A DNA stretch of 44,299 nt from an uncultured Bacteroidales bacterium (GTDB lineage: Bacteria > Bacteroidota > Bacteroidia > Bacteroidales > UBA932), in assembly GCA_900319855.1 (NCBI GenBank), contig ONQC01000015.1, forward strand, positions 1 to 44,299, written 5' to 3'. Below the pieces are notes generated by a model. It saw only the letters and a program-made list of their open reading frames with translations. It was not told the origin of the DNA and did not search any database. Numbering within the stretch: position 1 is the stretch's first letter; every line of letters starts with the position of its first letter. This document shows positions 9,217 to 22,688 of this stretch, piece by piece. A program made the translations under genes and the position numbers.

Positions 9217-9861
9217 ATGAATACAGACCAGCGTTTCGTAGTGACCATCGCCCGGGAACTGGGTTCCGGCGGGCGGACCATCGGCCGGAAACTCGCCGCC
9301 CGGCTGGGTGTCCGTTACAGCGACAAAGATCTGATCAACACCCTTGTCAAAGAATTCAACCTTTCCGTCGGGGAAATCGAGCGTATCAAGGGCCGTCGCA
9401 GCAACTGGCTGACCGATTTCCTGGAACGAATCGCTCCGCTTCCCACGACGGATACCCAGCTTGGCGCCCATGGGGATGAATTCGTGCGTGCGGTGACATC
9501 GGATACCTTGTATGAGGCGGAATGCGCCGTGCTTAAGGACCTTGCGAAAGAGGAATCCCTGGTTATCGCCGGCCGCTCGGCCTTCTTTATCCTGGATGGA
9601 TTCCCCAACAAGATTGACATCCTGATCGTTTCCGAGATGAAGAACCGGATCGCCCGGGTGATGGAGCGGTACGGGGTTGATGAAAAGACGGCCGTCGCCA
9701 AGATCAAGGAGGCGGACGCCCAGCGGGAAAATTTCGTAAAGCATTATGCCAAGGTCAGCCGCTACGATGCCCGCAACTATGACATGACCCTTTACGCCGA
9801 TGAGATCTCCGAGGACGACGCCGTCGAACTGATCCTTCGATACATTCAGATGAAACCTTAA
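9217..9861 (+). CDS. Cytidylate kinase-like family protein
   Basis: 214 residues matching the AAA_26 cytidylate-kinase-like family. The N-terminus VTIARELGSGGRTIGRKLA is the family's modified P-loop, followed by YSDKDLI. A central IAGRSAFFIL segment and a lid-like stretch with ARVMERYG and RENFVKHY follow. True Cmk is longer in its NMP-binding region and has a classical GxxGxGK loop; this group lacks the lysine in that position and its substrate is unknown. It is the first gene after the promoter at 9172, and the next gene starts four bases later. Nucleotide kinase activity is inferred from the fold only. Confidence 0.85.
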   Translation: MNTDQRFVVTIARELGSGGRTIGRKLAARLGVRYSDKDLINTLVKEFNLSVGEIERIKGRRSNWLTDFLERIAPLPTTDTQLGAHGDEFVRAVTSDTLYEAECAVLKDLAKEESLVIAGRSAFFILDGFPNKIDILIVSEMKNRIARVMERYGVDEKTAVAKIKEADAQRENFVKHYAKVSRYDARNYDMTLYADEISEDDAVELILRYIQMKP

Positions 9862-9864
9862 TAT

Positions 9865-10752
9865 ATGCAAATGAAAAACTTCTCTCTGACCGCCGTCTGG
9901 GCGGTCTTGTGCATTTCGCTTGTCGTATCTTGTAAACATGCCGGCCCCATGCAGATGGATACTTTCCGCCAGGCGGATTCCGTGGCGCATGTCCGTCTGT
10001 CCTTCGACATCGAACTTCCCGCCGCGAAGACGCCGGCCGCCAGCACCGTCCGGCTCAAACTCCTGGATGTCCTCGACAACCGGCTCAGCCGTGTCACGTC
10101 TTTTGAAGGCGACCGCCTGTTCGGGCCTTACACCGGTGTCAACTCCGATACGGAAGCCTTCGCCGGCTATTATTTCAAGGAGCTGATGGGCAATATGGCG
10201 GAACAGATGGATGCGGATGTGACGGAGCGCCTGAACTATATGCAGGAGGATCCCTCCTTCACCGAAGAAGACAAGGAACGGTTCCTTGCCGATCTTCCCG
10301 ACTGGGAATATGATTTCACGCTGAAGAAGCTCGATGAAACGCCCCGGTACCTCGTCTTCCAGTCGCAGGACTATACTTATCTGGGCGGCGCCCACGGCGG
10401 TGTCGGCGGAGACGGTTGCCTTACTTTCAATGCAAAGGACGGCTCCTTCGTCGAGCACCTGATCGACCGGTCGCAGACCGCTGCCATGCAGCCGCTGCTG
10501 ATCGCCGGGATGCTCCGCTATTACAAGGAAGCCGACGTCGAGATGACGCAGGACGAACTGCTTGATAATCTCATGATCGAGGACAGGACCATCCCGCTGC
10601 CGGTCTGGGAACCGTATCCGACCGCGGAAGGCCTGGTGTTTACCTATCAGCAATATGAGATCGCCAGCTATGCCGAGGGCATGCCTTCCTTCACGGTTCC
10701 GTACGAAGAGATCCAGCCTTACCTGACAGAAGAATTCCGGCAACTTTTGTAA
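9865..10752 (+). CDS. DUF3298 (RsiV-like) lipoprotein
   Basis: 295 residues with a lipoprotein signal and lipobox LVVSC (C23); a start at the second ATG (9871) is also possible. The mature part has a DUF4163-like N-terminal half and a DUF3298 C-terminal half: TYLGGAHGG (about 172-180), then TYQQYEIASYAEG and VPYEEIQPYL near the end. In Bacillus, DUF3298 is the extracellular part of RsiV, which binds lysozyme, and it also occurs in the peptidoglycan deacetylase PdaC. Bacteroidota lipoprotein versions are uncharacterised. Placement in a run with SpoIID, AmpG and NamZ genes fits a cell-wall role, which is inference. Gaps are 3 bases upstream and 10 downstream. Confidence 0.85.
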   Translation: MQMKNFSLTAVWAVLCISLVVSCKHAGPMQMDTFRQADSVAHVRLSFDIELPAAKTPAASTVRLKLLDVLDNRLSRVTSFEGDRLFGPYTGVNSDTEAFAGYYFKELMGNMAEQMDADVTERLNYMQEDPSFTEEDKERFLADLPDWEYDFTLKKLDETPRYLVFQSQDYTYLGGAHGGVGGDGCLTFNAKDGSFVEHLIDRSQTAAMQPLLIAGMLRYYKEADVEMTQDELLDNLMIEDRTIPLPVWEPYPTAEGLVFTYQQYEIASYAEGMPSFTVPYEEIQPYLTEEFRQLL

Positions 10753-10762
10753 CATTTCCTCC

Positions 10763-11527
10763 ATGAAAGGCCATTTGGAAGCAGTCATAACTCCTGAGAG
10801 CAAGGTGGTTCTCCGTCAGGCCATCCGTTGCTATGATGTGGACGGAGCGATGCGGCTGAAGCCGGCCGCCTTCATGGACCTGGCCCAGGAGATGGCTTAC
10901 ATTGCCGCGGACCTGATGCACTTCGGTTACGATGAATTGCAGCAGGAAGGCAAGGCCTGGGTGTTGTCCCGGATGCATTTCACCTTCGTCGACGTACCCG
11001 TCTGGCGCGATGAAGTGGAGATCCAGACCTGGCATAAAGGCCCCTCCGGTCCCTTCTATCTCAGGGATTTCCGGATTAATGACCTCCAGGGAAACGCAAA
11101 GGTGCTCGGGACGAGTTCCTGGGTGATCCTGGATGTCCGCGAGCGTCGGATGTGCCGGACCTCCGAGGTGACGGAAATGATCCCGGAATCCACGGTCTGT
11201 CATGATTTCGCCATCGAGGCGCCGGCGGAGAAAGTGGCCATGCCGCGCGGCATCCAGCCGGAAGCCGTCGCTTCCCACAAGGTGGGTTACGCCGATGTGG
11301 ATCTGCTGGGCCATACCAACAACGCCCGCTACGTCGTCTGGGCGATGGAGTGCATCGATTATGAACTGGTTGCTTCCCGTCCCATCAAGGACCTGTGGGT
11401 CAATTTCAACCATGAGACCCGTGCCGGGGAGGAGGTGACCCTTTTCCGTCATCAGGAAGGAGATACTTATTTTGTGGAAGGCAAGGTTGAGGACCGTCAG
11501 GCCTTCTGCGTCAAGATACAGTTTTAA
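10763..11527 (+). CDS. Acyl-ACP thioesterase (FatA/FatB-like)
   Basis: 254 residues with a double hot-dog arrangement: one domain about 8-145, a second about 165-250. It hydrolyses fatty acyl-ACP to free fatty acid in the cytoplasm. The hallmark second-domain motif DLLGHTNNARYVVWAME (from about residue 180) includes H184, N186 and N187. Bacterial versions of this family are common in Bacteroidota and often occur singly. The stop is followed one base later by the ATG of the transporter gene, indicating translational coupling. Any link to the wall genes downstream is unclear. Confidence 0.92.
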   Translation: MKGHLEAVITPESKVVLRQAIRCYDVDGAMRLKPAAFMDLAQEMAYIAADLMHFGYDELQQEGKAWVLSRMHFTFVDVPVWRDEVEIQTWHKGPSGPFYLRDFRINDLQGNAKVLGTSSWVILDVRERRMCRTSEVTEMIPESTVCHDFAIEAPAEKVAMPRGIQPEAVASHKVGYADVDLLGHTNNARYVVWAMECIDYELVASRPIKDLWVNFNHETRAGEEVTLFRHQEGDTYFVEGKVEDRQAFCVKIQF

Positions 11528-11528
11528 T

Positions 11529-13211
11529 ATGCAAGATTTGTTTTTGGGAACGGGCATCGCCCATTCTATCCTGCTGTTCGCCGTCGTGATCGGCCTCGGC
11601 CTTTACCTGGGCCGTTTCAAGGTGAAAGGCGTCAGCATCGGCTCGACCTGGATCCTGTTCGTGGGAATCCTGCTGAGCCATTTCGGTCTTCGGGCCAACC
11701 CGACCGTCCTGTCCTTCGTCAAGGACTTCGGTCTAATCCTCTTCGTCTTTTCCATCGGCCTGCAGGTCGGTCCCGGTTTCTTCCATTCTTTCAAGAAAGG
11801 CGGCGTGCTGATGAACGTCCTGGCCGTCAGCCTGGTGCTTCTTGCCGTCCTGGTCACTTTCGTGATCCATGTCGTGACGGGGGAGAGCCTTTCGACGATG
11901 ACCGGTGTCATGTCCGGCGCCGTGACCAATACCCCGGGACTGGGTGCTGCGCAGCAGACGCTGCAAGACGCGACCGTCGCCGCCGGTGGTACCGCGGAGG
12001 CAGCTGCCTCGGCCTCGGCCGGACTGGCTTCCGCCTATGCGGTGGCCTATCCGCTGGGCGTGTTGGCCGTGATCTTCCTGATCATCCTGTTCAAGGGTGT
12101 GCTGAAAGTCGATCTGGATAAAGAGAAGAAGCAGTTGGATGAGGAAGGGGATGCCGGCGAGAGCGCCCGCCGGATGCACTGCGAGGTAGAAAATCCGGCC
12201 ATTTTCGGGAAGACCCTCAAGGAAGTGATCGGGGACATGGGCCATCGGTTCGTGATTTCCCGGATCATGAAAAACGGAGAGATCCTCGTCCCGGGCCCCG
12301 AGACCGTCTTTGAAAAAGGCGATAAAGTCCTGATTGTGACCACCCAGCAGAACGTAGACTCCGTCCGTATCATTTTCGGGGAGGAGATCCAGATGCACCA
12401 GCAAGACTGGGACAAGCTGGATGATCACATGGTCACGCGCCGGCTGGACATCACCAAGTCCAACCTGACCGGAAAGCGCCTGAGCGAACTGGGTATCCGC
12501 CGCAATTACAATGTGACCGTGACCCGCGTGATCCGTGCCGGTGTCGAACTGGTTGCCCGCCCGAACCTGGTGCTCCAGATGGGAGACTCCATCCAGGTTG
12601 TCGGTACGGAAGCCAACATCAACGATGTGGCGGGTATCGTCGGCAACAAGCCCGAGACCCTCAGCAAGCCGAATCTTGTCCCGATCTTCCTGGGCATCGC
12701 CCTCGGCGTGATCTTCGGCAGCCTGCCGATCCGTTTCCCGGGCATTCCGCAACCGGTCAAGCTCGGCCTTGCCGGCGGTCCGCTCATTATCGCGATCTTG
12801 CTGGGCTATTTCGGCCCGAAGTGGAAGATCACGACCTATACGACCTTGAGCGCCAACATGATGATCCGCGAAATCGGTATCTCCCTGTTCATGGCGGCCG
12901 TCGGTATCGGTGCCGGCGAAAACTTCGTGGCATCCATCCTGGGCGGCGGTTACTGGTGGATCCTTTATGGCGCCCTGATCACCATCATCCCGGTGGCGAC
13001 GATTTTCCTGGTCGCCCGCCTGGCGTTCAAGCTGAATTTCTACCAGATCTGCGGTCTGATCTCCGGCGGAACGACCGACCCGGCCGTCCTGGCCTTCGCG
13101 CAGGGGATGTACGGTACCGATTATACCTCCGTTAACTATGCGACGGTCTACCCGCTCACGATGTTCATGCGTGTGCTGATGGCCCAGCTGCTGATCTTGT
13201 TCGCATTGTAA
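11529..13211 (+). CDS. AspT/YidE-family carrier with two RCK_C (TrkA-C) domains
   Basis: 560 residues from ATG 11529, immediately after the thioesterase stop; a longer in-frame start at 11472 would overlap that gene and is rejected. The layout is typical of aspartate:alanine exchanger-like proteins. An N-terminal membrane half (about 8-190) contains GAVTNTPGLGAAQ. Two soluble RCK_C domains follow (about 208-285 and 295-375). A C-terminal membrane half (about 385-560) contains the matching SGGTTDPAVLAFAQ. The two halves are an internal duplication. The substrate is probably an amino or dicarboxylic acid, with nucleotide or ligand control through RCK_C. Known AspT exchanges aspartate for alanine; this member cannot be assigned precisely. 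Its stop overlaps the next ATG by one base. Confidence 0.9.
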   Translation: MQDLFLGTGIAHSILLFAVVIGLGLYLGRFKVKGVSIGSTWILFVGILLSHFGLRANPTVLSFVKDFGLILFVFSIGLQVGPGFFHSFKKGGVLMNVLAVSLVLLAVLVTFVIHVVTGESLSTMTGVMSGAVTNTPGLGAAQQTLQDATVAAGGTAEAAASASAGLASAYAVAYPLGVLAVIFLIILFKGVLKVDLDKEKKQLDEEGDAGESARRMHCEVENPAIFGKTLKEVIGDMGHRFVISRIMKNGEILVPGPETVFEKGDKVLIVTTQQNVDSVRIIFGEEIQMHQQDWDKLDDHMVTRRLDITKSNLTGKRLSELGIRRNYNVTVTRVIRAGVELVARPNLVLQMGDSIQVVGTEANINDVAGIVGNKPETLSKPNLVPIFLGIALGVIFGSLPIRFPGIPQPVKLGLAGGPLIIAILLGYFGPKWKITTYTTLSANMMIREIGISLFMAAVGIGAGENFVASILGGGYWWILYGALITIIPVATIFLVARLAFKLNFYQICGLISGGTTDPAVLAFAQGMYGTDYTSVNYATVYPLTMFMRVLMAQLLILFAL

Positions 13212-13798
13212 TGGCTCTGGTCTATCCTCCTTATCCGGCGCCCCTGCTGCCGCGCCCGACCGTGGACAATCCTTCGCCGGCGACGACCGCAGGCCTGGAA
13301 ATGTTCCCGGTGGTGGATCCGCAGGGCCTGGTCATCGGCCAGATGACGCGGAATTATGCCCATGGCGGTTCCCGTCTCCTGCATCCGGTCATCCATCTGC
13401 ACATCCTGAACCGGGCCGGTCAGCTGTACCTGCAGCGCCGGGCGCTGGACAAGGACCTGCTGCCCGGGTATTGGGATACGGCGGTCGGCGGTCATGTCGT
13501 CTATGGCGAGTCGGTGGAAGAAGCCCTCTACCGGGAAGCGGAGGAGGAACTGCATTTCCATGATTTCAATCCGACGGCGGTGGAGACCTATGTCTACGAG
13601 AGCGTCCGTGAGGAGGAGCTCGTCCACGTCTTTGCCTGTGTCGGGGATTTCCAGCCCCGTCCGGATGGCGTGGAGGTCATCGCAGGCCGTTTCTGGGACT
13701 TCAAAGAAATTGAAGATAATTTGGGAAAGTCCGTCTTAACTCCTAACTTTGAGCAAGAGTTCGCCCGCATCCGCGGGACCCTCGAATCCCTGCTTTAA
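13211..13798 (+). CDS. Nudix hydrolase
   Basis: 195 residues. The Nudix box lies at about 94-116: G94, E100, R108-E109 and E112-E113 fit GX5EX7REUXEE, with the usual last Gly replaced by His115. An N-terminal extension (1-55) precedes the fold. Overall it resembles the isopentenyl-diphosphate isomerase-like/YfcD branch of the superfamily, which cleaves nucleoside-diphosphate-X compounds; the substrate is unknown. The ATG overlaps the stop of the AspT-like gene (TAATG), so translation is coupled. It sits beside a glycosyltransferase and a HIT-like/SpoIID fusion, so a nucleotide-sugar or nucleotide-linked substrate is attractive but unproven. Confidence 0.9.
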
Positions 13799-13808
13799 AC
13801 AAAGGAAA

Positions 13809-15122
13809 ATGACGGATATCACCCTTATCACCGGCCGTGTGCCCAGGACCTCCGAGGCCCTGAAACAACTGGCGGCGGAAGCGACCGGGACCTATCTCCT
13901 GATCAATACGAAAAACGTTGACTACGACCTTGGCTATCTCGCATTGGAGCGGTTCGCCGAGGTCGCTGCTGATACGGGGGCCGACCTGGTCTTTGCCGAC
14001 CATTATGACCGGCTCGCCGATGGTACGGTCCGCCGGCATCCGTTGATCGACTGCCAGGCGGGCGCCTTGCGTGACGATTTCGATTTCGGCGCGCTCTGGC
14101 TGGTCCGTACGGCGGCCCTGAAAGCCCTGGACCTGCCGGACGGCCTGCGGTTCGGTGCCCTGTATGACCTTCGTCTCCGATTGGACAAGATCTTCCATAT
14201 CAAAGAGTTCCTCTATACGGAATTCGAGCCGGACCTCCGGGCTTCCGGCCAAAAGCAGTTTGATTATGTGGACCCCCGCAACCGTGAGGTCCAGATCGAG
14301 ATGGAGCGGATCTGTACGGATTACCTCCGCCGGACCGGCGCCCTGCTGGAAGGGCCCTGCCGCCCCGTTCCGGATTGCAAGGAGACCTTCCCCGTGGTCG
14401 CGAGCGTCGTGATCCCGGTCCTGAACCGGATCCGCACCGTCGGCGATGCCGTACGCAGCGCCCTCGGCCAGCAGACGGATTTCCCGTTCAACGTCATCGT
14501 GGTCGACAACCACTCCACAGACGGTACGACGGCGCTGCTGGATGCCATCGACGACCCGCGTCTGGTGCACATCGTGCCGCAACGGACCGACCTCGGAATC
14601 GGCGGCTGCTGGAATTCGGCCGTCCGGGATCCGCATTGCGGTGCTTTCGCCGTGCAGCTGGACAGCGACGACGTCTACAGCGGACCGGATACCTTGCAGA
14701 AAATCGTCGATACCTTCCGCAAGGAAGGTGCGGCGATGGTCATCGGCTCTTACCTGATGACGGATTTCAACATGGAACCGATTCCGCCCGGCGTGATCGA
14801 CCACCGCGAATGGACGGAAGAAAACGGGCGGAACAATGCCTTGCGAATCAATGGGCTGGGCGCTCCCCGCGCCTTCCGCACCGACTTGCTCCGCCAGGTC
14901 GGCTTCCCGAATGTCAGTTATGGCGAGGACTATGCCGTCGGCCTGCGCCTGTGCCGGGAATACCGGATCGCCCGGATCTATGAGCCGGTGTATTGCTGCC
15001 GGCGCTGGGACGGCAATTCCGACGCGGCCCTCAGCATCGAGAGAGTCAATGCCAACAACCTCTACAAAGACAGTATCCGGACCGTCGAACTGGCCGCGCG
15101 CCGCCGCATGCTTGCAAAATGA
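13809..15122 (+). CDS. GT2-family glycosyltransferase with extra N-terminal half-domain
   Basis: 437 residues from ATG 13809, ten bases after the Nudix stop; upstream in-frame starts would overlap it. A standard GT-A fold lies at about 197-400: [12 protein letters not shown], the donor motif VDNHSTDGT (D233) and the metal-binding DSDD (285-288), with [12 protein letters not shown] as the acceptor-side acid region. Residues 1-180 resemble the second half of another GT2 domain ([16 protein letters not shown], then [12 protein letters not shown]) without its nucleotide-binding half, suggesting a degenerate duplicated domain. No membrane helix is seen, so it acts in the cytoplasm or peripherally. 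It shares an ATGA overlap with the DUF4922-SpoIID gene, implying a joint job. Donor and acceptor are unknown. Confidence 0.85.
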
Positions 15123-17437
15123 GAGAACAGGACATCCTCGATAAATTCGTCCGGGACCAGCTGTCTGTCTGGCCCCTGGCCGCCGCCAATTTCCGCGCCC
15201 TGAAAGATGCGCAGACCCGCGAACTGCCGGTCGGCGGGCTGACGGTCCGCATCCAGCACAATCCGGCCCGCATCCGCTCCTCGGCCGCTAAAGTCGACAA
15301 AGCCTCGATCGAGGCCCGTTCGTGTTTCCTTTGCGCCGACGCCCGCCCGAAAGAGCAGCGCACCCTGAAGTTCGAAGGCCGCAAGGGCCGCAAATACGAT
15401 ATCCTGGTCAATCCCTATCCCATTTTCCCGGGACATCTGACCATCGCCCGGGACCGCCACGTCGACCAGTCGATCTGGAAATGCCTGACGGACATGGCGG
15501 ACCTGGCACATCACTACACCGGGCTGACGGTTTTCTACAACGGTCCGCGGTGCGGTGCATCGGCTCCGGACCACATGCATTTCCAGGCTTGCCCGCGCGG
15601 CATGCTCCCGTTGGAAAACGCAGTGGACCGCCAGTTGGATACCCATGGAGAAGACCTCGCTTTCCTGACCTCGGTCAAGGAAGCGCAGCTTTTCCATTAC
15701 AAGAAATTTACGCGGGGCGTCTTTGTGCTGCGCGCCCGTACTTCGAAATCCCTGGCCAAACTGTTTTACCGGCTGCTGGACTGCGTACCGACCCCGGAGG
15801 GGGAGACGGAGCCCATGTTCAACCTGCTGATGTGGTATAAGTCCCTCGCCGGCGGACGCCGTCCGGCAGGGAACACCCATGGCCTGGCGGCCTTCGAGTA
15901 CCGGGCCATCGTCCTGCTGCGCGGCGCCCACCGCTCGCATCACTACTTCGACGAAGGGCCGGACCATCTGACCATGAGCCCGGGATGTGCGGACATGGCG
16001 GGCCTGTTCATCGCCCCGCAGGCGGAGGATTATGCCAAGCTGGACAGCCGGCTGCTGACAGAAATGCTTTCGGAAGTGTCGGTCAGCCCAGCGATTGAAA
16101 AAGACGTCCTGTGGCGGTTGACCCGTTCCCAGCAGACCCTGCAGGTGGGAATCCTGTCCGGAAAGGAAATCGTCTTCGAGATCATTTCCGATGGCGCCGG
16201 CCCGCAGAAGGTCAGCTACCAGGAGGGAAAGATCAATTACAATGGCGTTCTCTACGATGAGCTGTTCTTCGAGGCCAGTACGCCGTCGACCCTGTTTGCC
16301 GAGCCGACGTTCATCCTCCACGACGTGGTCATCGGGGTCGACTTCCATTGGGAACGTCGCCAGAGCCAGCAATTTGCGGGCTCGCTGAAATTCATCATCG
16401 AAAAGAACCAGGTGGTCGCCGTCAATGTCATCGGCGTGGAAGACTACCTGCTCAGTGTCATCTCCTCCGAAATGAAGGCGACGGCCGGCCTGGAATTCCT
16501 CAAGGCCCATGCGGTGATTTCCCGTTCCTGGGTCCTCGCCCAGATTGCGCACCGTGCGCATCCGACCCGGAGTGCCGGCATCGATTTCAAGGAGCTGAAC
16601 AATGTCCCGGCCTTGGTGACCAGTCTGGAACAGCGTCGGGAAACGGCCCTTGCCGGTGGGGAAGCGGCCGATGAAACCGTCATCGAAAAATGGTTCGACC
16701 ACAGCGACCACAAGCATTTCGATGTTTGCGCCGACGACCATTGCCAGCGCTACCAGGGCCTGACCCTGGCCATCGGAAAGACCGTCCGCCAGGCCATCGA
16801 CCAGACCTGGGGCGAGGTGCTGACATCGGACGGGGAACTTTGTGACGCCCGTTTTTCCAAATGCTGCGGCGGCCGGACCGAACTGTTCAGCACCTGCTGG
16901 GAAGACAAAGACGAGCCTTACTTGGTTTCATTGCCGGATACGCCGGACCATGGGGACGGAGATCCTTTCTGCGACACGCATGACGAGACAGTCCTCCGGC
17001 AGGTCCTGAACGACTATGACCTGGAAACCAAGGACTTCTACCGTTGGACGGAGGAATACGGCGTCGAGGAACTCTCTGCACTCATCGCCCGTCGCAGCGG
17101 CATCGACATCGGTACGCTGACGGCGCTGGAACCGCTAGAAACAGGCCCGTCCGGCCGGATCAAAAAGCTCCGCATCGTCGGCACGAAACAGACGCTGACC
17201 GTCGGCAAGGAGCTGATGATCCGCAAATTCCTTTCGGAATCCCATCTGAAGAGTTCGGCCTTTACGGCTACGTTTACCCCCGACGGAAAAGTCCGCCTCG
17301 ACGGCCGCGGCTGGGGCCACGGCGTCGGCCTCTGCCAGATCGGCGCCGCCGTGATGGGCAGCCGCGGCTACTCTTACCGTGAAATCCTTTCGCACTATTA
17401 TCCCGGTGCGCAACTGACCCGCTATGAACAAGAATAA
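15119..17437 (+). CDS. Fusion protein: HIT-like DUF4922 domain plus SpoIID/LytB domain
   Basis: 772 residues from ATG 15119, overlapping the preceding stop as ATGA. Residues 1-320 match DUF4922, a HIT-superfamily relative. It has a CxxC pair (C69, C72) and HMHFQA (H152, H154, Q156), the HxHxQ signature of the GalT/Ap4A- and GDP-sugar-phosphorylase branch. Residues about 340-772 form a SpoIID domain: conserved Glu E451 in [19 protein letters not shown], and the C-terminal signature [12 protein letters not shown] followed by [11 protein letters not shown]. SpoIID proteins cleave or activate cleavage of glycan strands lacking stem peptides. No signal peptide or membrane helix is visible, which is odd for a wall enzyme and suggests action on imported or cytoplasmic material, or unusual export. 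Its stop overlaps the AmpG-like start by 14 bases. Confidence 0.85.
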
Positions 17438-18728
17438 TCCCTGGTGGTGGGTGCCGACCCTGTATTTCGCAGAGGGCATCCCGTACTTCATCGTCAATAC
17501 CATTTCGACCATCCTTTTCAAGCGGATGGGCCTTTCCAACGGCGACATCGCCGCCTATACCAGCCTGCTCTACCTGCCCTGGGTCATCAAGCCCTTCTGG
17601 AGTCCCTTCGTTGACATTCTCCGGACCAAGCGCTGGTGGGTCGTGGCCATGCAGGCCCTGATGAGCGTCGGATTCGCCCTGCTTGCCCTGTCCCTGCCGC
17701 ATCCGTCGTCCGAGGTGATGGCTTCCGGGCAGACCCCGGTCTCCCTTTTCGCCGTCACCCTGATCCTTTTCTGGATCACGGCTTTTGCCTCCGCGACCCA
17801 TGACATTGCTGCGGACGGATATTACATGCTGGCGCTGAGCCAGAAAGACCAGAGCCTCTTCGTGGGCATCCGAAGCACCTTCTACCGGCTTTCTTCCATT
17901 TTCGGCCAGGGGGTGCTCGTCGTGATCGCCGGCTTGCTGGAGACCCGGCTGGGCAACATCCCGCGGGCCTGGTCCATCACGCTCCTGTCGGCCGCCGTGC
18001 TGTTCGCCGCCGTTACGATGTGGCATGTCTTCGCGCTTCCGAAGCCGGCCTCGGACGCGGTCCGCAGCACGACCGGTGCCAAGGACATCTTCCGGGAATT
18101 CGGCCGGACCTTCGCGACCTTCTTCCGCAAGCCGCTGGTCTGGCTGGCCATCGTCTTCCTGCTGCTGTACCGCCTTCCCGAGGCCCTGCTGGTCAAGCTG
18201 GTCAATCCCTTCCTGCTGGACTCTCCGGATGCCGGCGGCCTGGGACTCGCCACGGAAACGGTCGGCTTGGTCTATGGCACCATCGGCATCCTCGGCCTGA
18301 CCCTGGGCGGCATCCTGGGTGGCATTGCCGCCTCCAAATGGGGCCTGCGCAAGTCCCTGTGGCCCATGGCCGTCGCCATCACCCTTCCGGACCTGGCCTA
18401 CCTGTGGCTGGCCATCGCCCAGCCGACCAACCTGATTGCGGTCAGCGCACTGGTCTTCATCGAGCAGTTCGGCTACGGCTTCGGCTTCACCTCGTACATG
18501 CTCTATATGATCTACATCTCGGAGGGCGAATTCAAGACGGCACACTATTCGCTGTGTACGGCGTTCATGGCGCTCAGCATGATGGTCCCCGGTTTCTTCG
18601 CCGGAGCGCTGCAGGAGTCCGTCGGTTATCCGGCTTTCTTCGGCATCGTCATGCTCTGCTGCCTGGTCACCGTCGCCGTCACCTTCCTGGTCCGGCAGAA
18701 GGTCGATCCGGAATTTGGTAAAAAGTAA
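17424..18728 (+). CDS. ampG: AmpG-like MFS importer (muropeptide permease family)
   Basis: 434 residues with about 12 membrane helices. The N-terminus PTLYFAEGIPYFIVNTIST, then YTSLLYLPWVIKPFWSPFVD and the Asp-containing HDIAADGYYM segment, are characteristic of AmpG-type MFS carriers. These bring GlcNAc-anhydroMurNAc and its peptides, or related muropeptides, into the cytoplasm for recycling. The start overlaps the SpoIID fusion gene by 14 bases and the serpin gene follows after 7 bases, so all belong to one transcript. A NamZ exo-muramidase two genes on supports a wall-salvage role. Some AmpG-like proteins carry other substrates, so specificity is inferred. Confidence 0.85.
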   Translation: MNKNNPWWWVPTLYFAEGIPYFIVNTISTILFKRMGLSNGDIAAYTSLLYLPWVIKPFWSPFVDILRTKRWWVVAMQALMSVGFALLALSLPHPSSEVMASGQTPVSLFAVTLILFWITAFASATHDIAADGYYMLALSQKDQSLFVGIRSTFYRLSSIFGQGVLVVIAGLLETRLGNIPRAWSITLLSAAVLFAAVTMWHVFALPKPASDAVRSTTGAKDIFREFGRTFATFFRKPLVWLAIVFLLLYRLPEALLVKLVNPFLLDSPDAGGLGLATETVGLVYGTIGILGLTLGGILGGIAASKWGLRKSLWPMAVAITLPDLAYLWLAIAQPTNLIAVSALVFIEQFGYGFGFTSYMLYMIYISEGEFKTAHYSLCTAFMALSMMVPGFFAGALQESVGYPAFFGIVMLCCLVTVAVTFLVRQKVDPEFGKK

Positions 18729-18735
18729 ATTGAAC

Positions 18736-19899
18736 ATGAAACATTTAATCGCTGTCTTGCTGATCATGGCTGCATGCGGAACCCCCCAAAAAAACTTTGC
18801 CGGAACGGATGTGATGCGCAAACCCATTGTTGACAACAAGAAAACGGACTTCTCCATGCGGCTGCTGGGCACGGGCCTGCGGCAGGGCGATCCGAAGCAG
18901 AACCTGGTCCTTTCACCGTTCAGCGCGGGTGTAGCCCTTTCGCTGCTGCTGGACGGCGCTGCCGGAAAGACGCAGTCCGCCTTGTTCGAGACGATCTCCT
19001 ATGCCACCTATGCCGGCACTGAAATCTATACGGATTCCCTGAACATCGTGACTTCCGCCAACTCGATCTGGGTCCGCAAGGGAATCGCTTTCAAGGACAA
19101 TTATCTGGACTATGTACGGGGCGGCTCCTATGGCGCCCAGGTGGAGTCCCGTGATTTCACCGACCGTGCAACCGTCGGGGAAATCAACGGCTGGTGTGCG
19201 GAAAAGACCCGCGGCCTGATTCCGTCCATCGTCAGTGAGCTGCAGCCGGAACTCGCGGCCATCCTCCTGAACGCCTTGTATTTCAAGGCGCCGTGGGCGG
19301 AAGAGTTTGAGAAGTCCGATACCCGCAAGGAGACCTTCCATGGCGCTGAGGGAGACCGGCAGGTCGATTTCATGCACAAGACGACCCGCGGCTACGGCTA
19401 TGCCGGCTTTGAAGGATGGCAGGTCGCCTCCCTCCCGTACAAGAACGGCCGCTACGCCATGCTGGTGGCCTTGCCTCCGCAGGATGCGGACCTGAATGCC
19501 TTGACATGGGACGTGGATCTTTTCAACAAGGTCCTGGATGCCTGCCAGGGTGGAGTCCGGGTCGCCCTGTCCCTGCCGAAATTCAAGATTGAGACGACCC
19601 TGGTCATGAACGACCTGCTCTCCGCGATGGGGGCGGCGCCCATTTTCACCGATGGCGCCGATTTCTCCCGGATGTCCGCCATGCCGCTGGCCGTTAGCCA
19701 GATCCTGCAGAAATGCTTCATCGAAGTAGGGGAGGAAGGAACCGAAGCGGCGGCCGTGACCGGCGCCTTCATGCGGCTGACTTCCGTGGCCCGGCCCGAA
19801 CCGCCGGTCGAGATGCGGGTGGACCGCCCGTTCCTGTTCGCCATCTATGACACGACGACGAAACTGATCCTCTTCGAGGGTCGCATCGCCAATATCTGA
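18736..19899 (+). CDS. Serpin-family lipoprotein, probably inhibitory
   Basis: 387 residues from ATG 18736, seven bases after the AmpG-like stop; an upstream in-frame start overlaps that gene. A lipoprotein signal ends at C14 (LLIMAACG). The full serpin fold is present, including NLVLSPFSAGVALSLLLDGA, AILLNALYFKAPW and the C-terminal DRPFLFAIYD. The reactive-loop hinge EEGTEAAAVTG (333-343) has the small residues expected of inhibitory serpins. Counting from the hinge Gly335 puts P1-P1' at about T349-S350, with R347 nearby. Serpins trap serine or cysteine proteases irreversibly. Surface-anchored bacterial serpins are thought to protect against host or competitor proteases. Its place inside a peptidoglycan gene set is unusual. 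The NamZ gene follows after 4 bases. Confidence 0.92.
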   Translation: MKHLIAVLLIMAACGTPQKNFAGTDVMRKPIVDNKKTDFSMRLLGTGLRQGDPKQNLVLSPFSAGVALSLLLDGAAGKTQSALFETISYATYAGTEIYTDSLNIVTSANSIWVRKGIAFKDNYLDYVRGGSYGAQVESRDFTDRATVGEINGWCAEKTRGLIPSIVSELQPELAAILLNALYFKAPWAEEFEKSDTRKETFHGAEGDRQVDFMHKTTRGYGYAGFEGWQVASLPYKNGRYAMLVALPPQDADLNALTWDVDLFNKVLDACQGGVRVALSLPKFKIETTLVMNDLLSAMGAAPIFTDGADFSRMSAMPLAVSQILQKCFIEVGEEGTEAAAVTGAFMRLTSVARPEPPVEMRVDRPFLFAIYDTTTKLILFEGRIANI

Positions 19900-19903
19900 T
19901 ACC

Positions 19904-21154
19904 ATGAAAGGCAATAGACTGATACTGACCGTCCTGCTTGGTTGCCTGTGCGTAGCCGCCCCGGCCCAGGTTCGTCCCGGCATCGAAGTGCTCGAGAGCC
20001 GGGGCTTCATCGGCCTCCGCGGGAAACGCGTCGGCCTGGTGACCAACCCCAGCGGCGTGGACCGCAACCTCCGTTCCACGATTGACATCCTGTTCGATGC
20101 CCCCGGCGTCGATCTGGTAGCCCTGTTCGGCCCTGAACACGGTGTCCGGGGCGATGCCTATGCCGGCGACCATGTCACCGACAGCAAGGATCCGCGCACC
20201 GGCCTTCCGGTCTATTCGCTCTACGGCGCGACACGCGAGCCTACGCAGGCCATGCTCGAGGGCATTGACGTGATGGTCTATGACATCCAGGATGTCGGCA
20301 CCCGCTCCTATACCTTCATCAGCACCCTGGGCCTGGTCATGCGGGCCTGTGCCAAGAAAGGCATCGAAGTGATGGTGCTGGACCGTCCGAATCCGCTCGG
20401 CGGCCTCAAAGTGGAAGGCAGTTATGTGGAACCCGGCTTCTTCTCTTTCGTCAGCCAGTTCAAGATCCCCTATGTCTATGGCCTGACGGTCGGGGAACTG
20501 GCGAAGATAATCAATGAAGAAGGGCTGAACTGCGGACAGCGCGGCAATGAAGAGCCCCTCCGCTGTAAGCTGCTGGTCGTCCCGATGCAGGGCTGGCACC
20601 GCTGGATGCGCTATGCCGATACGGGCCTTCCCTGGATCCTTCCTTCCCCGAACATCCCCTATGCCCAGAGCGCTGTCAATTATCCCTCCGCCGGTCTGTG
20701 CGGAGAGCTGGGCTACCTGAACATCGGCGTGGGCTACACCTTGCCTTTCGAGACCTTCGCCGCCGAGTGGATCGATGCCGGGAAACTGCTCGATAAACTG
20801 AACAGCTACCATCTTCCGGGGGTGGCTTTCCGGGAAATCCACTACAAGCCGATCTCCGGCGGATCGGCCGGGAAACTGCTCCACGGCGTTCAGTACCATT
20901 ATACCGATTACGAGGCCGCAACCATTACACTGACACAGTTTTACGTCATGCAGGCGGTCGGGGAACTATACCCTGACAGGAACCCTTTCAAGGGCGCTGC
21001 GTCGAAATATGAGATGTTCCATAAAGTTTGTGGTACGGATTATGTAAGGATAGCATTTTCAAAGAGGCAAAGAGTCGAAGACATCCTCGAACACTGGTCC
21101 AAGGACGTTGAAGATTTCAAAACTCTTTCAATGGGGTATTACCTCTATGAATAA
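19904..21154 (+). CDS. namZ: NamZ-type exo-beta-N-acetylmuramidase (DUF1343)
   Basis: 416 residues with a cleavable signal peptide (about 1-21, ending AAPA). The DUF1343 domain fills the mature protein: LVTNPSGVD (45-53), LFGPEHGVRG (74-83, with E78 and H79 in the proposed active site) and YDIQDVGTRSYTF. Characterised members (Bacillus NamZ and the Tannerella enzyme) remove MurNAc from the non-reducing end of peptidoglycan fragments in the cell envelope. It lies two genes after the AmpG-like importer, fitting a scheme where chewed wall sugars are taken up and reused. MurQ or MurK genes for MurNAc use are not in the window. Confidence 0.88.
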   Translation: MKGNRLILTVLLGCLCVAAPAQVRPGIEVLESRGFIGLRGKRVGLVTNPSGVDRNLRSTIDILFDAPGVDLVALFGPEHGVRGDAYAGDHVTDSKDPRTGLPVYSLYGATREPTQAMLEGIDVMVYDIQDVGTRSYTFISTLGLVMRACAKKGIEVMVLDRPNPLGGLKVEGSYVEPGFFSFVSQFKIPYVYGLTVGELAKIINEEGLNCGQRGNEEPLRCKLLVVPMQGWHRWMRYADTGLPWILPSPNIPYAQSAVNYPSAGLCGELGYLNIGVGYTLPFETFAAEWIDAGKLLDKLNSYHLPGVAFREIHYKPISGGSAGKLLHGVQYHYTDYEAATITLTQFYVMQAVGELYPDRNPFKGAASKYEMFHKVCGTDYVRIAFSKRQRVEDILEHWSKDVEDFKTLSMGYYLYE

Positions 21155-21173
21155 CTGCTAAAACTTTAAGAAA

Positions 21174-22688
21174 ATGAGAAACTTGATGACTTCGGCACTC
21201 GCTGCCCTGGCACTCGCAGGAATGCTTGCGATGCCTCTTGGAGCCCAGGCTCAGACCCGTCGCAGCGGCAGTTCTTCTTCGACTGGCCGCAGCACCACTA
21301 CCACTTCTGGAAGTTCCTCATCCAGCAATAGATCTTCCGCTGTCCGCAGCAGTTCCACCAGCTCCGCCACCCGCAGCAGCTCCTCCAGCGCCGTCCGCAG
21401 CTCCTCTACGAGCCCGACCCGCTCCAGCGCCACGCAGGTGACCCGGCAGAGCAATACCGGCCGCAGCACCTCTACCGGTTCCGCGACCCGCAGCAGCTCC
21501 ACTTCGAGCCAGACCCGCAGCAGCTCCTCCAGCGCCGTCCGTTCTTCCTCCAGCTCCTCCTCGACCCGGTCCGCCACCGCGCCGACCCAGTCCAGCCAGG
21601 TCCGCAGGGGCACGACGACCTCCGGCAGCAGCTCCTCCGGTTCCGCTACCCGAAGCAGCTCTTCCTCGAGCTCTGTCACGCGTAGCAGCTCTGCTACCCG
21701 CAGCAGCGCCACCTCCGGCTCCCAGAACGGCCAGGTTGTCCGCAGCAGCTCTTCTGCCGCAACGTCCAGCCCTTCTTCCAGCAACTCCCAGCAGGTGCGC
21801 CGCAGCAGCGCTTCCGCCGCCAGCGGCTCCGTCGCTGCCAACAACAACGTAACCCGCCGCGGCCTCAGCCCGGTGACCCAGGAAATGCAGAGCAAGAGCA
21901 ACAATGCTCCTGCCAACAACAACTACGGAGACTATCGCGTGGACAACCACAATGTCCAGCGGATCCCTCCGAGAGAGCGTGATTTCATGACCTATGACCG
22001 GCCCGGTGCCTTCTGGGGCAGGGATCCGCACTACTTCGGATGGAGGATCCAGACGCTTCCTCCGCGCTACAGGAGAGTCCGTTACTTCGGTATCGACTAC
22101 TACTTCTACAACAATGTCTACTACAGGCCTTACGCCGGACATTACGTGATCTGCCGTCCTCCTTTCGGCGTGATCATCGAGATCGCTCCCCGTCGCGTCA
22201 GCCTCGCCACCGTGGCCTTCGCGTACTACCACAACGTCTACAGGACGTATAATGGCTGGGATTCCTACAGCCGCTATATCGACGAGCAGAACCGCATCAT
22301 TGCGCAGAACAACGCGACCATCGCGGCGCAGAACGCGGCCATCGCCATGAACCTGAACGCAGCGCAGAACTCCTACTCCCTCGCCAACCAGCTTGGCCTG
22401 GCCCAGAGCTATGCCTACGCGAACCAGCAGTACTACTACGAGGACGGTGTCTTCTACATCATCAACCGCAAGGGCAGCTACGAGGTGATCGTACCTCCTG
22501 CCGGCGCGCTGGTGGAAGCCCTCCCGGAGGACTATGAGACCCTCACCCTCGGCGGCCATGAGTACTACCGCGTCGACGATACCGTCTACCGGATGGTCAT
22601 GGTCCAGGGACGTCCCTACCTCGAGGTCCTCGGTCAGATGTACGGCGACATGGCCCGCCGGTACAACACCTACTATCAGTACTATTAG
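21174..22688 (+). CDS. Secreted Ser/Arg-rich protein with C-terminal DUF6515 domain
   Basis: 504 residues. A signal peptide (about 1-26, ending GAQAQ) is followed by roughly 200 residues of RSSS/TRSSS low complexity, nearly free of aromatic residues, and an Asn-rich segment. The C-terminal part (about 270-504) is Tyr-rich with YFGIDYYFYNNVYYRPY, an Asn/Gln/Ala helical stretch (NRIIAQNNATIAAQNAAIA), and a DUF6515-like ending: YYYEDGVFYI, VIVPPAGALVEALPEDYE, HEYYRVDDTVY. The domain's function is unknown. The design suggests a surface- or wall-associated protein with a flexible, positively charged tether. It follows NamZ by 19 bases and precedes two terminator hairpins, so it ends the long gene run. 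Confidence 0.82.
   Translation: MRNLMTSALAALALAGMLAMPLGAQAQTRRSGSSSSTGRSTTTTSGSSSSSNRSSAVRSSSTSSATRSSSSSAVRSSSTSPTRSSATQVTRQSNTGRSTSTGSATRSSSTSSQTRSSSSSAVRSSSSSSSTRSATAPTQSSQVRRGTTTSGSSSSGSATRSSSSSSSVTRSSSATRSSATSGSQNGQVVRSSSSAATSSPSSSNSQQVRRSSASAASGSVAANNNVTRRGLSPVTQEMQSKSNNAPANNNYGDYRVDNHNVQRIPPRERDFMTYDRPGAFWGRDPHYFGWRIQTLPPRYRRVRYFGIDYYFYNNVYYRPYAGHYVICRPPFGVIIEIAPRRVSLATVAFAYYHNVYRTYNGWDSYSRYIDEQNRIIAQNNATIAAQNAAIAMNLNAAQNSYSLANQLGLAQSYAYANQQYYYEDGVFYIINRKGSYEVIVPPAGALVEALPEDYETLTLGGHEYYRVDDTVYRMVMVQGRPYLEVLGQMYGDMARRYNTYYQYY
21252..21848 (+). repeat. Serine/arginine codon repeat region
   Basis: Many degenerate copies of CGCAGCAGCTCCTCC-like units encode RSSS blocks with inserted Thr, Ala and Val. 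The irregular period argues for slippage-prone growth and not a clean tandem array. Confidence 0.75.

Follow-up and report, generated by a model that had tools for sequence, protein, structure and literature searches.

A GT2, DUF4922 and SpoIID trio beside AmpG-type importers in Bacteroidota, a candidate cytosolic processor of peptidoglycan fragments

Described recycling systems and the locus of the window

Peptidoglycan (murein) recycling of the E. coli type proceeds through AmpG, NagZ, AmpD, AnmK and MurQ, among which AnmK acts in the cytosol and turns anhydro-N-acetylmuramic acid (anhydroMurNAc) into N-acetylmuramic acid (MurNAc)-6-phosphate. Here we analyze a gene run of an uncultured Bacteroidales bacterium (lineage UBA932), located on contig ONQC01000015.1 of assembly GCA_900319855.1, positions 1 to 44,299 (the window, i.e. 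the whole stretch of DNA that was analyzed). It resembles the E. coli-type system in its AmpG-type import, but differs in carrying a unit of a GT2 glycosyltransferase, a DUF4922 domain and a SpoIID domain, hereafter the trio, while neither AnmK nor MurQ was matched in the window's own genome (assembly 90.9% complete).

The closest described gene order is that of Tannerella forsythia, in which Tanf_08345-08385, according to the portions of a 2017 paper available to us (PMC5388701), comprise xanthan lyase, gtf, gtf, lytB, ampG, ybbC and then murTKQ; these genes were co-transcribed by reverse transcription PCR, a reporter in E. coli showed activation of their promoter by GppX, and the T. forsythia AmpG restored muropeptide-dependent reporter induction in E. 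coli. In a second, likewise partly available paper (PMC7670621), the ampG mutant did not grow on N-acetylglucosamine (GlcNAc)-MurNAc(-peptides) or GlcNAc-anhydroMurNAc(-peptides); no AnmK orthologue was predicted in T. forsythia, yet it showed AmpG-dependent growth on GlcNAc-anhydroMurNAc, and its authors named the processing of the imported fragments an open question.

The window's GT2-DUF4922-SpoIID-AmpG-(serpin)-NamZ parallels the gtf-gtf-lytB-ampG-ybbC of T. forsythia, where gtf, gtf and lytB are known from figure-legend labels and lytB is labelled 'amidase enhancer precursor' (PMC5388701); the second gtf is equated with DUF4922, and ybbC with NamZ, by such labels and not by T. forsythia DNA. 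The window differs in having no murTKQ adjacent, a serine-rich protein following NamZ instead, and in its Nudix and serpin genes. The initial annotation had not known the combined system to be described; the operon is already in print for T. forsythia in its core, and what is new here is the probably cytosolic trio and its inverse relation with AnmK. By title and opening of the abstract, with most subscription papers outside this scope, the literature gave no description of the trio, which seems undescribed. The core genes of the window are the following.

13809..15122, plus strand: GT2 glycosyltransferase of 437 residues, which opens the trio and is extended at its N-terminus by about 190 residues (Glycos_transf_2, 3e-19)
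15119..17437, plus strand: DUF4922-SpoIID fusion of 772 residues without signal peptide (DUF4922 2.9e-58, SpoIID 2.5e-20; Pfam/NCBIfam)
15119..16120, plus strand: DUF4922 domain of that fusion, an Ap4A-phosphorylase/GalT-like nucleotidyl-transfer domain with HxHxQ at 152-156 and CxxC at 69/72
16124..17434, plus strand: SpoIID domain of that fusion, with the catalytic position E451 and a zinc-type site H531/C537/H541/C542
17424..18728, plus strand: AmpG-like muropeptide permease of the major facilitator superfamily (TIGR00901, 1.1e-47)
19904..21154, plus strand: NamZ-type exo-beta-N-acetylmuramidase with a signal-peptide-like N-terminus (NamZ_N 2.7e-84, NamZ_C 6.4e-36)

The GT2 gene overlaps the fusion gene by 4 bases, and the fusion gene overlaps that of the AmpG-like protein by 14 bases. 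The NamZ protein appears to be an ordinary GH171 exo-beta-N-acetylmuramidase by sequence, with both Pfam domains, an export-type N-terminus and a match to PDB 4k05 at 7.3e-144.

Order, fusion and co-inheritance of the trio

Gene order was compared in 80 named loci, the best 80 of at least 584 relatives retrieved with the GT2 alignment, and 20 further stretches were annotated, one of them from the window's own genome; the open reading frames (ORFs) of the named loci were labelled by similarity to the window proteins at E 1e-8 or better, a threshold that divergent members may escape. In 63 of the named loci the sequence ran on for at least 7.5 kb beyond the start of GT2; among these, SpoIID lay downstream on the same strand in 60, DUF4922 in 58, AmpG in 54, NamZ in 16 and the serpin in 5, while DUF4922, SpoIID and AmpG occurred together in 48, and with NamZ as well in 11. 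By these counts, GT2, DUF4922, SpoIID and AmpG make up the core, which some members of the family extend by NamZ, and its clustering exceeds chance. Its order is kept across Bacteroidales families, and the trio is found in Prevotella and Bacteroides species too.

The trio is recurrently fused. Its architecture in the 80 named loci was a triple fusion of GT2, DUF4922 and SpoIID in 37 (one chain of about 1,200-1,300 residues), DUF4922-SpoIID in 16 and GT2-DUF4922 in 5; of the others, 15 had the genes apart or truncated where the contig stops, and in 7 DUF4922 was not found. A quick tree was built from 99 GT2 proteins, 86 of them with an assigned state; it requires no fewer than 13 architecture changes, and 7 switches between fused and separate states.

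Two genome samples were then used, one of the phylum (296 genomes) and one of the order (247 genomes). With thresholds of E 1e-60 or better for GT2, >500 bits for SpoIID and >230 bits for DUF4922, the score gap being chosen after the scores had been viewed, the phylum sample held GT2 in 40 genomes, SpoIID in 40 and DUF4922 in 41, with all three in 39 and two of three in 2; from the 45 genomes listed, G257, G262, G285 and G503 were dropped, in which only SpoIID-region matches of 77-118 bits were present. In 21 of 36 genomes of other classes, no contig held SpoIID and DUF4922 less than 10 kb apart: they were on different contigs of draft genomes in 16 and 26 kb to 3.2 Mb apart on the same contig in 5 (distances were tallied in 36 of the 37 other-class genomes with both, G402 being left out). 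By this unlinked occurrence, the trio is co-inherited beyond mere neighbourhood, in a nearly all-or-none manner.

An AmpG homologue (E 1e-15) accompanied the trio in 39/39 trio genomes, compared with 98 of the 296 phylum-sample genomes overall. In the order sample it was present in 63 of the 64 DUF4922 genomes versus 29 of the 183 others, and it lay within 7 kb of DUF4922 in 45/64; the Fisher values for co-occurrence in both samples ignore relatedness. In the window's own genome, the AmpG-like protein was the sole TIGR00901 match. As a side observation, some AmpG homologues are about 600-640 residues long (L045 11913-13787, L050 11888-13681 and L096 12259-14118), the family match being broken near profile position 167 with about 180 extra residues between (L045, by eye); such frames are frequent in the order sample and present in other classes.

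AnmK was found in 205 of the 296 phylum-sample genomes, but unevenly: it was present in 15/39 trio genomes, whereas of the genomes free of trio genes it was carried by 189 of 255 (Fisher 2.1e-5) and, where AmpG was present, by 56/57 (Fisher 1.9e-11). These values ignore relatedness, and the partial genomes G402 and G469 were excluded from the contrast. By family, an AnmK-lacking genome occurred in 8/8 trio families versus 1/14 AmpG-only families, with f126 counted on both sides.

Proposed processing of imported fragments and its alternatives

We lean, with somewhat better than even confidence, to the reading that the core serves peptidoglycan-fragment salvage and that GT2, DUF4922 and SpoIID act as one cytosolic processing enzyme. 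Outside the inner membrane, NamZ would trim the glycan of the wall; import of GlcNAc-MurNAc and GlcNAc-anhydroMurNAc, with or without peptide, to the cytosol would fall to the AmpG-like permease; and the three domains, separate or fused, would jointly process the imported sugars there, which would make AnmK dispensable. In this process SpoIID might open or transfer the 1,6-anhydro bond, DUF4922 might move a nucleotidyl group or phosphorolyze a nucleotide sugar, and GT2 might move a GlcNAc-type sugar. The kept order, recurrent fusion, co-inheritance, AmpG company, lack of an export signal, intact active-site residues and AnmK depletion come from sequence comparison and structure prediction, whereas we infer that the trio acts in the cytosol, on which substrate it does so and by which reactions. 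The proposal of the initial annotation, that the GT2 and HIT-like (DUF4922) proteins handle recovered sugars, fits this context at the level of prediction.

The DUF4922 domain falls into the superfamily of Ap4A phosphorylase (Apa2), GalT and ADP-glucose phosphorylase by its predicted fold and HxHxQ active site. The residues of HxHxQ and CxxC were invariant in 42/42 rows of the alignment, Ap4A_phos_N matched 19/19 DUF4922 members at E up to 0.1, and H154 aligned with the Apa2 histidine that is replaced by alanine in PDB entry 4i5v; the matches to the predicted structure included nucleotide-sugar and Ap4A enzymes, with rows mostly covering residues 41-391. It departs from the superfamily in its own invariant CxxC and other residues, and in being fused to SpoIID or GT2. 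The GT2 models matched transferases that build polymers, TarS and chondroitin polymerase among them, with rows mostly covering residues 166-437. Both likenesses, together with the retention of AnmK in part of the trio genomes, favour an alternative in which the trio is biosynthetic, GT2 and DUF4922 using recovered parts to build or cap a glycan or a nucleotide-activated muramyl sugar, SpoIID trimming or anhydro-capping it, and the AnmK pattern reflecting lineage history. We regard this as unlikely, while worth keeping in sight, since the constant partner of the trio is AmpG, accompanied in some loci by NamZ, MurK-like and MurQ, all salvage genes, and the recurrent neighbour clusters that were identified (PdxA, RlmN, a hexapeptide protein and a sigma-54 regulator) are not those of glycan export, several clusters being unnamed.

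The window's SpoIID domain is alike in fold, profile, Glu and His/Cys/His/Cys site to the lytic transglycosylase of sporulation, known from structures 5i1t and 4rwr of C. difficile and B. anthracis, with E451, H531, C537, H541 and C542 invariant in 44/44 rows. In C. difficile SpoIID the catalytic residue is Glu101 and the proposed zinc ligands are His134, Cys140, His145 and Cys146, as given in the available part of PMC6221140; E451 was placed by HMMER alignment and the zinc ligands by motif spacing against that protein, the C537-H541 spacing being one residue shorter. Unlike the sporulation enzyme, the window protein occurs in Bacteroidota, is fused to DUF4922 (and to GT2 in relatives), and has neither signal nor anchor. 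A hydropathy test over the first 90 residues (19-residue window, threshold 1.6; L001-L030 left out) detected no N-terminal hydrophobic segment in 89/89 SpoIID-bearing proteins, with 0/30 SpoIID, 0/21 DUF4922-SpoIID and 0/38 triple-fusion proteins passing; GT2 (0/51) and DUF4922 (0/25) did not pass either, versus 21/26 for NamZ. Over the whole chain, 1/38 triple fusions (1.62, internal) and 1/25 DUF4922 proteins (a low-complexity stretch) passed. Because no such segment was found, the SpoIID domain is most likely cytosolic, and its fusion to two putatively nucleotide-using domains fits the cytosol. An ordinary periplasmic enzyme is made unlikely by the lack of an export signal, a point on which the initial annotation needs changing.

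We give little credence to a second alternative, in which denuded glycan outside the inner membrane is the target of SpoIID, as for other SpoIID proteins, reached by an unrecognized export route, GT2 and DUF4922 being separate cytosolic helpers. Characterized SpoIID proteins do act on wall glycan (PMC6221140, as available), NamZ is exported, and the T. forsythia lytB label (PMC5388701) points the same way; against this stand the uniform lack of an N-terminal hydrophobic segment, several invariant cysteines, and the triple fusions, in which one chain with GT2 and the nucleotidyl-transfer domain would put all three in a single compartment.

Within the salvage reading, a more specific and rather speculative version, to which we assign a low probability, makes the trio a nucleotide-cycled phosphorolytic muropeptide splitter. 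GT2 would run in reverse and move GlcNAc from GlcNAc-(anhydro)MurNAc onto a nucleoside diphosphate, DUF4922 would phosphorolyze the nucleotide sugar to GlcNAc-1-phosphate and the diphosphate for the next round, and the cytosolic SpoIID would open the 1,6-anhydro ring, giving MurNAc kinases access to the sugar. If so, NagZ and AnmK would be replaced without ATP cost for GlcNAc, and to our knowledge there would be no earlier case of cytosolic lytic-transglycosylase chemistry.

A third alternative, which we hold to be quite improbable, accepts the genes as a unit but takes the substrate to be other than peptidoglycan, the AmpG-like proteins importing another small glycan. The AmpG homologues are indeed under the family cut-off, and among the 63 named loci no same-strand AmpG lay downstream in 9 and no NamZ in 47; opposed to it are the T. 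forsythia AmpG, which belongs to a like-ordered operon, works in the E. coli reporter and is needed on muropeptides (PMC5388701 and PMC7670621, both as available), and MurQ, which follows in L083, L088 and L096. In L088 (Bacteroides xylanisolvens) and L096 (Tannerellaceae), a MurK-like kinase and MurQ come after AmpG or NamZ. By ORF listing, L083, L091, L123 and L129 share the order large protein, GT2, SpoIID, AmpG, NamZ and then MurT-, MurK- and MurQ-like; by family search, MurQ of L083 is above the family cut-off and its kinase is weakly like N-acetylglucosamine kinase, while in L123 the MurT-like protein is weakly like NagX and DUF5009 and the large protein has a Golvesin_C domain. With the core order kept in Bacteroidales families, MurQ and MurK-like genes in relatives and the T. 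forsythia ampG operon order, the initial reading of the run as peptidoglycan salvage is borne out in outline.

Several points weigh against the salvage reading with a cytosolic trio. AnmK is retained in 15/39 trio genomes, so the trio is no simple AnmK replacement everywhere; genomes that share ancestry do not count as independent cases, and few higher groups may account for the trio families. The absences from the window's own, incomplete genome are soft. That genome has 14 GH3 matches (13 in frames of 577-880 residues and one of 226 residues), none of them near the size of E. coli NagZ, and with so many GH3 enzymes a NagZ activity may still be present. The AmpG-like protein of the window scores 162.7 bits against TIGR00901, below the curated cut-off of 350, which was reached in 0/247 and 0/296 genomes of the two samples. 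L083, L091, L123 and L129 keep GT2-SpoIID-AmpG-NamZ, yet even a profile search of these loci detected no DUF4922, which is there either dispensable or located elsewhere. The hydropathy test is crude, and some N-termini may be too long, the start having been taken as the first start codon after a stop. The T. forsythia operon was matched through the gene labels in print and through relatives of like order, and free anhydroMurNAc gives T. forsythia poor growth (PMC7670621, as available).

Flanking genes and implications for Bacteroidota

The initial annotation described a candidate operon of six genes, i.e. the core genes listed above and the two following.

13211..13798, plus strand: Nudix hydrolase, a local upstream neighbour (Pfam NUDIX, 9.8e-16)
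18736..19899, plus strand: serpin with a lipobox-like N-terminus (Pfam Serpin, 4.9e-87; best PDB match 5ncs, 1.7e-50)

All six family assignments were confirmed by Pfam/NCBIfam, and the genes are closely packed on one strand, with gaps of 4-10 bases and overlaps of 1-14 bases: the Nudix start overlaps the stop of the preceding transporter by 1 base, and gaps of 10, 7 and 4 bases separate Nudix from GT2, AmpG from serpin and serpin from NamZ, respectively. The uninterrupted same-strand run in the window extends from 9217 to 22688 with gaps of at most 19 bases and several start/stop overlaps. Transporter, thioesterase, DUF3298 and kinase genes lie upstream of the six with gaps of at most 10 bases back to 9217, among them the DUF3298 lipoprotein noted initially, which was confirmed at 4.8e-10. 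The six-gene limits are arbitrary because these upstream genes are equally close. Promoter and terminator scans were no richer than shuffles (3 versus 4.6 and 9 versus 11.3, respectively), therefore the operon ends are not set. At the other end, a serine/threonine-rich secreted-looking protein (21174-22688) begins 19 bases past NamZ and has a counterpart in 6 named loci.

The flanking genes do not share the conservation of the core. Nudix was found in 12/80 and the thioesterase in 11/80 named loci, and the transporter in 6/80 by clustering (7 by direct match), all within L052-L063, the nearest by GT2 identity. The serpin, whose PDB match 5ncs we take to be miropin from the neighbouring rows of the match list, was found in 5/80, standing between AmpG and NamZ as in the window, and was not found in the same-genus locus L032; it is a local insertion, probably an accessory protease inhibitor. 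Among the ORFs of L031-L130 and the window, the DUF3298 protein had no match but itself. Nudix, serpin and DUF3298, which the initial annotation had drawn into the pathway, were therefore rejected as conserved members, being local or unique among the searched loci; its combined operon stands in the core and in the murein outline, and falls in the flanking genes and the novelty of the core. That the run is merely unrelated genes packed as an operon may hold for the flanking genes, since transporter, thioesterase and DUF3298 are not partners outside the nearest loci, but for the core it is contradicted by kept order, repeated fusion and co-occurrence where unlinked, and as a whole it is barely credible.

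Two further observations concern the window's own genome. A second piece of this neighbourhood lies on a small contig (L031, G000:C8, 3,907 bases) at about 73% identity over 2.2 kb; its order is thioesterase, transporter and Nudix, followed immediately, with no GT2, by the beginning of a DUF4922 gene, which loses resemblance ahead of the HxHxQ motif. This could be a relative's stray contig, a misassembly or a decayed copy. In addition, a protein of 501 residues (L133 832-2337, G000:C18) carries an APH kinase domain and, by eye, a RapZ-like C-terminal part; it is a candidate sugar kinase.

On the matches collected here, many Bacteroidota carry three co-inherited, often fused enzymes, usually beside an AmpG-type importer, which look like an unrecognized cytosolic machine for fragment processing and may stand in for AnmK, lacking in many of these bacteria. 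By analogy of gene order, the trio is a direct candidate for fragment processing in the AnmK-less T. forsythia, and thus a concrete candidate for the question on AmpG-imported fragments named in the part of PMC7670621 available to us. If true, this would mean a second murein recycling route and a cytosolic role for a wall-cleavage fold, and would bear on the amount of immunostimulatory muropeptide released by these commensals.

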